Assembly: GCF_000787575.1 (NCBI RefSeq)
Contig: NW_012236513.1
Span: 62,001-126,000, forward strand
Length of the DNA stretch: 64,000 nucleotides
Direction: 5' to 3'
Origin: Acytostelium subglobosum LB1
Taxonomy: Eukaryota > Evosea > Eumycetozoa > Acytosteliales > Acytosteliaceae
Shown here: piece by piece, positions 42,328 to 47,108 of the stretch
How the letters are laid out: each line of letters starts with the position of its first letter
How positions within the stretch are numbered: the first letter of the stretch is position 1
Made by a program: the position numbers and the translations under genes
Notes under the pieces: model-generated
The model's input: the letters and a program-made list of their open reading frames with translations, nothing else
Databases searched by the model: none
Told to the model about the DNA's origin: nothing

Positions 42328-45117
42328 ATGAACGTTATAATATCCAAGTTTATGGAAAATCAAGGCCAACAACAACATGGACACTCAAGTGGCGGTGGAC
42401 AGAACGCGGAAAAGAACGCAGCAATATTGGCCGCAGCATCATCACTTGGTGGATTTGTTTCCCCAATCTTAACTTCACCATCATCACCTTCATCATCGTC
42501 TTCTCCGCACAGTCCACACAAGCCAAAGTTAAAGTACAAGAATTGGTGCGCACAAGTCGAAAAGAAGTCCAATGCAATCTTATTAATGATGCCACAACTA
42601 GAGTTGATTGGCAGCACCGAGGAAAGGAAGCGTGAGAAAGCCGCTGGATCACTGGGCAAGGCCAACGGCCTCCTTCAAGACATGATCACATTGTTGGAAA
42701 TCGTCACCTACAAGCCAAGCAAGAAACAGCCGCCTGCATTGGGCGACATGGCACCAGAGATGAATACATCATCCTCAAGTTTAAAAACTTCTGGAGGCAT
42801 GCCAGCACCTCAATCTCAACAGCAAGGCTCATCACAATCACTCTCATCGTCTGGGAGCAGAGTGCCCCCTCTGCAGACAGCATCATTGTCATCATCGTTT
42901 AACGACCTCCCAGTTGGTGGAGGTTTGATCAGCACATTCAACAGCCTCAAGGAGCAGCGCGAAAAGGAGGCAAAGGAAGCGGCGGCAAAGGGCGACGCCA
43001 ATGCCAATGGCAAGAACTCGCGTATCATCTCACAATCGTGCAGGGAGGCAATGTTGACGCTCTGGGGCTCACTCATCAATTTTGCCGAGAAGAACTATAA
43101 CCTGGACAAGGACTTCTCCTTAGTCTATCGTACTATATTACTACTTGTTGGTCGCAAGGAGTTTGACACGGCCATCTCTTCAATTGATCCACAGACCTAC
43201 AAGCGATGGACCGCTGACTTTCTGACCAAGTATCGAGTCAAACTGTACAAAACATTCACCTTTGTCGCCTACCTTGTATCATCAACGCCCTATCTCAATC
43301 TCCAACTATCACAGTTCTGTGCCAAAGTAAGTTAGCAACCCTCCGGCCACTTTTGGGACTATTCCAAACTAACCCAATCAATCAATAGTTTCTTGTTATA
43401 TCATATCATAGAATACCTAGAGTTGCCAAACAATTGTTGGCCGCACTGACTCCACCAGAGTCAGAGACAGAGGATATCTTAAAGTACTATCCATGTCCAA
43501 CAAAGTCATTGCTCACTGAACCTGTGTTGGACAGACCCGACAAACTACCATTCCATTCATTATTAATGCAACATGATGCATGTGAGAAGGAGTTGGAATC
43601 AATATCACAAGGGTAAATAGCCAACCAGCCAACTCCAATCCAAACACTCAATACTCACAATATCAATCAATCAATCAATCAAACTAGTTGGTTAAACAAC
43701 CTGGCTAGGAAGGAGAGCGTATTCTTTTTGTTTGTTAGAGAGTGGATAAATATGACCAAGTGCGCCTTGGGCGAGAATGTCGACTTTAGGTCAGTTCCAG
43801 GCTACTTCTCGCTGGTCTATGCAGTGCTGCATGAGATCAAGTGTAAGGAACAGGTGGCTCCACCACCTCCACCAGCCAAGCCAACACCATCGGCAGAGGC
43901 TCATATAGCATTGATACATATAGCTCGTGTTGAGACACGTCTTCTCGACGCCATGGTCAAGGTGCTGTTCCTAAAGACGTGTGTGTTTGACTTGGAACTT
44001 GTGGCGGCAACACTCAGCATCGTTGAACTATGGATACGCGAGTATGGTATCCTGCCCAACTCATTCGACATTGACTTCTTCTGCAAGGGCATCGATAGTA
44101 TCATCTCGGCCGATCACCATCAGTTGATCATACGCTCACTCAACATGGTCTACAACGTATCGGATTCATTCCAAGGTCGCAACAGACGTGCACTCTTCTC
44201 CGATCTCCTCTTCCACAAATGTTTCAACCAACTATTCCTACATTGGGACCAGCCCGTACGCAATGCCTATCATCATATATTATTATACAGGGTAAGTACC
44301 ATACTCCAATATAGTCTGGATCTATCCCCTAACACAAACAAAATATTGATCATAGATGGTGAGAATCAATCGAGGTATACTCAATCAGAGGGGATTCACC
44401 CTGGCAGAGTATAGTAAGTTGACACATAATAATACAGTGTTGACTACAACAAAGCAGCTGGCACCGATCAAATATCCAGAGAGGGAGAAGGAGAGGGACG
44501 ATAAGCCCCCTGCAGTGATGGCAGCATCATCACCAGACCTTTCACTGTACAATACTTCATCGCGATTGGCCTCGTCCGCCGCCTCAATATCTAAACCACC
44601 TGGAACACCTCGCCCGGTCAATCTGCCAACCGTGCCAATAAGGAAGGTGCGTCCACCTGTGCCTCCAAGGAGGCCACTCACCGCCTCACAGGAGATCGAG
44701 TCGCAGACGGCGACGGTGCAGCAGGAGTCTTGCCCCACGAGTGGCGAAGACCATGGAGCGCATGAGGACGACCACACATCAGTAGTGGCTTCATCTTTGT
44801 CATGTTCATCAGACGACAAGGACATGACTCATGCCGCGGCAACACAGGCAAGCGATATATTTGTTCAGTTTGGAAAGGAGTATGCCATTGATGTGGAACT
44901 TTTCCTAAAGATTGAACTCAACATCAAGAATGTGTCTGATCAATTCCGCTCGCCTGACCTAAAACACTACGACCTGGCACTCAACAACTACGTGGCGCCA
45001 TCACTCAGCGAGTTCAAGACATACATCGCCATCAGCAACCAAGTCAACTCTACACCACCCAAGATTATTCCACTTATCCTTCAAGGTCCAACGCCATTGA
45101 ACTTCCTCAAGGATTGA
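42328..45117 (+). CDS. DUF1765-type large helical protein
   Basis: Four exons, 42328-43326, 43389-43612, 43688-44291 and 44356-45117; 862 aa. The start could also be the ATG at 42352 (MENQGQQQHG). Conserved helical blocks (SCREAMLTLWGSLINFAEKN, FLVISYHRIPRVAKQLLAAL, VFFLFVREWINMTK, FLHWDQPVRNAYHHILLYR) alternate with Ser/Pro-rich inserts. The pattern around FVREWI.MTK and W...VR..YH..L.YR is what I recall for DUF1765 proteins of fungi and amoebae. A Pro-rich segment, RKVRPPVPPRRPLTA, is a candidate SH3 ligand. Exon 4 begins ATG GTG but is internal. Molecular role unknown; no signal peptide or TM segment. Confidence 0.8.
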
Positions 45118-45348
45118 GTTGATCAGTCCATGTACATACCCTTGTCTCAAACATACATATATAAACATGTTGTGTCATCATATATTGATTGGATTGGATT
45201 GGTTTATTGTTGTTGTTGGATTGGCGATGGTTGGATATGTTGGCTTGGATTGAGTATGTGTCAAGGCTGATCAATCAGGATGGACATCTTCACTAGCGCT
45301 GGTAAATGGAGTAAAACCAGTGATGTAGATGATCCAAACTCTGATTTG

Positions 45349-45412
45349 ACCATTGTTTCAAACATAGACGACAATATGATTATTGCTACCGACTATGCTG
45401 TCATTACATGAT
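45349..45412 (-). promoter_or_regulatory. Candidate SECIS element in the SELENOF 3' UTR
   Basis: On the minus strand, 64-127 nt past the SELENOF stop. The quartet is A-UGAC (45404-45400) opposite UGAA (45360-45357). Between them AGCATAG pairs with CTATGTT (one G-U), then a U-U mismatch and CG/CG, capped by a loop rich in A (GTAGCAATAATCATATTGT). Below the quartet AUCAUGU pairs with ACAAUGGU with one bulge and one G-U. Two unpaired A residues precede UGAC. The apical AA lies about 15 nt from the quartet, slightly far for a typical element. Folding was done by eye. Confidence 0.65.
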
Positions 45413-45475
45413 ACACTCTCTATATCTCTTGTCAACTTATATCCCATCGCACATGTATATATATATCAGGTTATT

Positions 45476-46153
45476 CTAATTCTTCAATTCTCTCTCCTTC
45501 AAGAACTCTTCAATGTTCTCATTCTTCCATTTATCGATACTATTTGTTTGATTGTTTGATTGATCAAGTTAGTAATGGTGATCGTCAATGTTAACATCAC
45601 GCTCAACTTACGCGATAGTCTCAGCTTTGCCTTCAGAGTCAGTCAACTCAAAGATAGGGGATGCTCCAGATTGGTACTATATTTGAATGAATGAATGAAT
45701 GAATGAGTGAATGATTGACGCGTTGGCATGGAAATTACAACAACATACTCTAACGGTAACCTTGTACTGGCTCATCTTGTTATCAATGAAGTCTTTGACC
45801 TGAGGGTAAGCGTTCAACTTTCACCTACATATCACGACCTCTGCTTTGGTGTATGTTTTCTTTTGATGGAGTGCCTCTACTGAACAGCACTTCTTGCACT
45901 CATCGACCGCATCTGAATTGCCCATGAACTCTTCGAATGCCTGACAGGAGGAGCACAGCAGTGACTCTGTGAAGCCTAGATCATGGCAGTTGACTGATAG
46001 TTGTGTCGTTGTTGTTGTGGATGGTGGAGACAATGCCGTTGTAGTTGGAGGCAATGTCGCTGCCATACATAGACACAACAACATAAATAGCTGATGGAGA
46101 CCAACATGTGAGGACATCATCTGTAGACGTCCTCGCGTCGTCACCCTAGCCAT
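45476..46153 (-). CDS. sep15: 15-kDa selenoprotein (SELENOF/Sep15) with in-frame TGA
   Basis: Minus-strand exons 46153-45749, 45676-45612 and 45539-45476; 177 aa if the TGA at 45823-45821 (codon 111) is read as selenocysteine. A signal peptide (MLLCLCMAATLPPTTTA) is followed by the Cys-rich UGGT-binding domain: CHDLGFTESLLCSSCQAF, then ECKKCCSVEA. Next comes the thioredoxin-like part. The redox site reads VIC-R-U-KLNAYPQVKDFI, matching C-G-U-KLGRFPQVQAFV in human SELENOF, with Arg for Gly. After the TGA the frame continues through two canonical introns (GTATGT/TAG, GTAAGT/TAG) to YQSGASPIFELTDSEG and AIDKWKNENIEEFLKE, ending TAG. Continued family similarity beyond the TGA and a SECIS-like hairpin downstream support recoding. 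It acts in ER glycoprotein folding. Confidence 0.92.
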
Positions 46154-47108
46154 ATTATCTTGTTATATTTATATATATTTATGTACAAATAATTAAATAA
46201 CAAATGAATTGAAACAAAGACAACAAGACAAAGTGGGTGACGCGACATACTGAATGAAAAGTGTGAAGATCCAGTCTGTTCATTCATTCTTACAACATTC
46301 GTACAACATATACATATACAATGAAGATCAGATATCTGACAAGGACTTGATCAGCATTGACCTTATTTGGTGTTTAAAAGATATGTGGTCGACAATGATC
46401 TTGTATGTTTGCATGACCAAGTGAGACCATTGTCGAGTGGGGGATGAAAGACACCTTCATCTCGCCAACACCCCCACCTTGTTCAACAATTGGACTACTA
46501 CTCGGCACCTATCCTAATTAGGAGGGAGGGCTCAGTCGACCCCAACACTACTACTGTTGTCTTATGCATAAGGTACATATCTTCCAACAAACAGTTATAT
46601 AATTATCCAGAGAGTAACAATTTATTAACAGCTGTAGAGATATATTATTATATTAGTATCTACTAAGATTTTGAGATTTTAAAAGATAGAGATATCTCTT
46701 TACCAAAGGTAAGTTATCCACCTCCATTCAACCTCAACAGCTGATTGATTGATTGCATGATTGAATGAATGAATGATGTTGCTTATGTCGTAGAACGTTG
46801 TTGTTGTCGCCCATAACCCCCAATTGACTGAACATGCATGGATGTAAGCAAGTTCCCGGGAACCGGGTGTGTTGCTGTGGTGGTTGTTGTTGTTCAAGAT
46901 TATCATCTTGCAATGATGATGGGTGGATTGAATGAATGAATGAATGAATTACAATTCAAAGACATAATTACAACTTATTGAACATCATCCAATCTATTCA
47001 ATCATACTCAAATCATCAAACATTCAAACAAACAACAACTTGTAATATTAATATAAACATAATATCAACCAACATTAAAGTTTAGATCATATATAGTTTG
47101 GAAGAAGA
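46154..47108. other. Divergent spacer (SELENOF / ACC) with a 12-bp palindrome
   Basis: A perfect palindrome GTTCCCGGGAAC (46852-46863) stands in AT-rich DNA about 250 bp upstream of the ACC start and is followed directly by a further CGGG. The sequence CGCCCATAA at 46809-46817, about 35 bp upstream of it, resembles dictyostelid small-RNA promoter elements only loosely. No gene is supported. Confidence 0.5.

Follow-up and report, generated by a model that had tools for sequence, protein, structure and literature searches.

A three-exon SELENOF gene with a predicted selenocysteine codon in Acytostelium subglobosum

Does the TGA at codon 111 of a SELENOF-like gene in Acytostelium subglobosum encode selenocysteine (Sec), or does it end the protein after 110 residues? 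The gene lies on the minus strand at 46153-45476 of the window (the whole 64-kb stretch of DNA that was analysed) and was modelled with three exons and two introns. In proteins of the SELENOF family a Cys-rich domain binds UGGT in the endoplasmic reticulum (ER) and a thioredoxin-like domain reduces disulfides.

Exon 1 (45749..46153, minus) encodes a hydrophobic N terminus, a Cys-rich region of the UGGT-binding type, the C-R-U motif and the start of the thioredoxin-like domain. Exon 2 (45612..45676, minus) encodes YQSGASPIFELTDSEGKAETI followed by a split codon, and exon 3 (45476..45539, minus) ends with a TAG at 45478-45476. Intron 1 (45677..45748, minus, GT-AG, with a TTCA repeat inside) and intron 2 (45540..45611, minus, GT-AG) were predicted, and the exon joins inferred, from splice sites, reading frame and family similarity. 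The joined coding sequence of 534 nt yields 177 amino acids plus the stop, and its sole internal stop is the TGA of codon 111 (45823..45821, minus), the predicted Sec of the C-R-U motif. The first-pass annotation had the coordinates, the number of exons and the codon right and did not give the strand; it had also warned that gene callers would truncate the protein at 110 amino acids, which is the length obtained when translation is stopped at this TGA. The start was set at the first ATG, with the in-frame ATG codons 12 or 13 as possible alternatives. Either of these would still leave near the N terminus the hydrophobic stretch LHQLFMLLCLCMAA, which was picked out by eye as a candidate signal peptide.

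Both introns are exactly 72 nt long. Runs of a TTCA/TGAA unit were seen by eye in intron 1 (45748-45677) and in a spacer (e.g. 46929-46949). Downstream of the gene and convergent with it, a 253-amino acid open frame ending in TGA occupies 44356-45117 on the plus strand of the window; it gave no Pfam match at E 0.01.

PF08806 (Sep15_SelM) matches residues 106-173 of the 177-residue read-through protein, with 71.7 bits against a cut-off of 26. The family match is more than chance; it takes in the TGA and both exon joins, in agreement with the similarity through two more exons that had been claimed from the letters. Three further Pfam matches were all under their cut-offs. A phmmer search of PDB sequences found Drosophila Sep15 (2a4h, E 4.7e-13), aligning the TGA residue, with no gap nearby, to the second Cys of the fly CTC motif. 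Six other PDB matches (6i5b, ‘Uncharacterized protein’, E 0.0089, residues 50-100; five at E 0.91) were taken as chance. An exon-wise search of the whole genome with PF08806 returned one match, the present locus, at 24.5 bits alone and 34.6 bits with its in-frame neighbours, with 1 TGA inside. No SELENOF relative was found among 7 pattern matches in viral contigs or 16 in prokaryote genome contigs, in a search with a single-protein query that detects close relatives only.

Six Cys precede the redox motif, at residues 56, 67, 70, 86, 89 and 90. Their spacing is 11-3-16-3-1, followed by 19 residues to the redox Cys (Cys109) and 2 to Sec111; positions given for human SELENOF in the available text of PMC8360269 yield a computed spacing of 11-3-15-3-1, then 20 and 2. 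A single residue separates Cys and Sec in C109-R110-U111, and CxU is the pattern of SELENOF as opposed to the CxxU of SELENOM (excerpt of PMC9304195). As far as the excerpts of PMC8360269 and PMC9304195 describe it, human SELENOF thus shares with the present protein a UGGT-binding domain of six Cys at near-identical spacing, a CxU motif and a thioredoxin-like domain. The human protein is also described there as having a signal peptide, where the present one has a candidate seen by eye. Drosophila Sep15 (2a4h) is likewise built on a thioredoxin-like domain, but has CTC and no Sec in place of CRU with a predicted Sec.

Parts of the Sec machinery were located elsewhere in the genome. A tRNA-Sec scored 68.2 bits against a cut-off of 47, and its anticodon loop, as aligned, contains UCA; a second, weaker tRNA-Sec match proved to be an ordinary tRNA. 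SepSecS was matched at 594.2 bits, and the single TAG in the matched stretch is its opening codon. On contig C49 an open frame was identified as eEFSec by its best PDB matches, which are named selenocysteine-specific elongation factor or eEFSec (E 3.2e-110); the next PDB match is a SelB (E 7e-46). In the selB search this frame scored weaker than the best match, L004 (187.5 bits), which was ruled out as eEFSec because the PDB chains that it matches are EF-Tu (best E 1.9e-128). A SelD-type protein, selenophosphate synthetase (SPS2), was found at 128.1 bits (cut-off 125). The first-pass annotation had named tRNA-Sec, eEFSec, SBP2 and SPS2 as the components to look for, and had held that a genome lacking all Sec machinery would speak against its reading; tRNA-Sec, eEFSec and SPS2 were recovered together with SepSecS, and SBP2 was not.

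SBP2 was absent from the six L7Ae matches returned by the exon-wise genome search, which correspond to Snu13, eS12, eL30, NHP2 (by PDB match) and eL8, with a second eL8 exon (L020) assigned by eye. Exon-wise searches may miss divergent, intron-split genes such as SBP2 and PSTK, and SBP2 is reported in slime moulds in the available text of PMC2746813, so a divergent or intron-split SBP2 may have been missed here. For PSTK, TIGR03575 had no match in the genome, and the sole match of PF08433, tried as another route to it, is a KTI12-type protein. The search for SelK gave no match in this genome or in any control genome and is uninformative.

Two other genes carry a TGA within the frame. In SPS2 (G000:C45:55863-56583, minus) it stands in G-U-G-C-K, and in a deiodinase homologue on the window's own contig (G000:C37:224017-224547, minus; 122.5 bits) the one in-frame TGA stands in SYT-U-PPF; we take these to be the usual Sec sites of the two families. 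A SECIS candidate follows in each case, containing TGTAATGAC after the stop of SPS2. None of the 26 GTPase-family matches and none of the 6 L7Ae matches in the genome contains an internal stop, which argues that TGA is not generally read through.

A candidate SECIS element was also seen downstream of the SELENOF gene (45358..45408, minus). It has a TGTA-ATGA core (45408-45401), a long helix with a U-U mismatch, an apical loop containing AA and a closing TGA. Counted past the last base of the TAG, the TGTA prefix starts at 68 nt and the ATGA core at 72 nt; after the core come a C, a helix some 15 positions long that includes the U-U mismatch, the loop CAATAATCATA and the TGA. On both strands of the window TGTAATGAC occurs once, in this candidate, and GTAATGAC has one further copy beside the one here, at 820 of the minus strand. 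Among the loci examined, GTAATGAC lies at three places, downstream of the stops of SELENOF, SPS2 and the deiodinase homologue; in the last it is preceded by A, not T.

A SECIS scanner scored the SELENOF candidate at 9 and the SPS2 candidate at 7. It missed the deiodinase candidate, which was seen by eye and has a bulge in its helix. On both strands of the window it returned 23 hits, some overlapping, of which 8 scored at least 9 with the SELENOF candidate the lowest; the seven others all lack the GTA prefix, and among the 23 only the SELENOF candidate has GTA before ATGA. When the 476-nt region was shuffled 200 times, 12 shuffles reached a score of 7, 1 reached 9 and 0 reached 9 with TGTA, a control that was not blind, as the candidate had been seen by eye and the published UGUA read before the scanner was written. 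Five Rfam matches were obtained for 44900-46400 at E up to 10, none of them SECIS and all under their gathering scores. Folding gave an unremarkable z of -1.40 for the SELENOF candidate (its stability was equalled or exceeded in 22 of 200 shuffles), -0.42 for SPS2 (63 of 200) and -2.56 for the deiodinase (6 of 200), whose candidate thus folds better than most shuffles. The helices of the three candidates were not brought into register by MAFFT.

The excerpt of PMC2375036 assigns the SECIS elements of Dictyostelium discoideum to type II: UGUA precedes the core, a U-U mismatch follows it directly (but lies further up in the deiodinase), and AAA is left unpaired. The SELENOF candidate shares the UGUA ahead of the core. 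It differs from that description in having AAUAA instead of AAA, a C-U after the core with the U-U further up, and no clear type II mini-stem. Taken together, 45358-45408 is a plausible SECIS element. A 43-amino acid open frame from ATG to TGA (45280-45411, plus) runs antisense over the candidate; it had no Pfam match at E 0.01 and is probably due to chance.

We are highly confident that the locus is a three-exon SELENOF gene whose TGA encodes Sec. The family match, the position of the TGA, the spacing of the Cys, the presence of tRNA-Sec, SepSecS and eEFSec, and the two other TGA-bearing genes all support this. At the level of sequence the gene structure, the family membership and part of the Sec machinery are established, and the in-frame TGA is most likely read as Sec. 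Ribosomes would decode UGA codon 111 by means of the genome's tRNA-Sec and eEFSec and the candidate hairpin in the 3' UTR, as expected for the family. By the same analogy, the product would enter the ER, its six-Cys domain would bind UGGT, and Cys109 and Sec111 in the thioredoxin-like domain would reduce non-native disulfides of glycoproteins. A UGGT-type gene is present in the genome (75 bits, cut-off 26.2).

The same TGA could in principle have arisen by decay or by a sequencing error, the locus then being a former SELENOF in which a Cys codon became TGA and nothing past residue 110 is translated. Such a Cys form is known in the fly, but the frame is otherwise open across three exons with GT-AG splice sites, the TGA falls exactly on the Sec site, and the genome holds Sec machinery as well as a TGA at the Sec sites of two further genes; a pseudogene or an error is accordingly very improbable. 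Sec insertion depends on selenium supply, and a part-time stop may therefore be considered, giving a 110-residue Cys-rich form of the UGGT-binding type under selenium shortage and the full-length protein under ample supply. The truncated product would retain all six Cys of its domain. The sequence after the TGA is, however, conserved as coding, and we give this reading hardly any credence.

With the TGA of the SELENOF gene most likely read as Sec, the residue between Cys109 and Sec111 is the remaining peculiarity. It had been noted that the motif is CRU where animals have CGU. This agrees with human SELENOF, which has CGU in the available text of PMC9304195, but does not extend to all animals, the fly having CTC. 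According to the excerpted part of PMC7539508, the motif of algal SELENOF is CxU, although some algae carry CMR or DQW, and that of land plants is CMR. The middle residue of the SELENOF motif is thus already variable, and CRU is a minor variant in which Arg is one more such residue. No published description of CRU was found in the open-licence literature, which does not show novelty. The redox potential is given as -256.3 mV for the human SELENOF domain (excerpt of PMC9304195) and as -225 mV for the fly CTC Sep15 (excerpts of PMC9304195 and PMC6266307). It could be supposed that C-R-U is a lineage-specific redox motif, in which the positive charge of Arg would lower the pKa of the selenol and shift the potential or the choice of substrate away from those of the CGU enzymes, making this a functionally distinct SELENOF; we regard this as unlikely.

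In D. discoideum, Sep15 was reported in 2007 among five selenoproteins, and one of the four 75Se bands seen there fits its size (excerpt of PMC2375036). The only tRNA-Sec gene of that species appeared repressed at all stages analysed, according to the available text of PMC13063481. The present genome resembles that of D. discoideum, as described in the excerpt of PMC2375036, in having a predicted Sec-containing Sep15 alongside predicted selenoproteins of the SPS2 and deiodinase families; this set and the SECIS core are consistent with a dictyostelid, though no proof of one. The gene is real but ordinary, the same protein being already known as a selenoprotein in D. discoideum, and its small oddity is the Arg between Cys and Sec. 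It adds one more modelled selenoprotein gene, liable to mis-annotation as a 110-amino acid protein, to a genome that also carries its companions, SPS2 and a deiodinase homologue, and in which several components for Sec insertion can be demonstrated. The picture of selenoproteins drawn for D. discoideum is extended to the present genome, and the sole new question is what Arg does in the redox motif.
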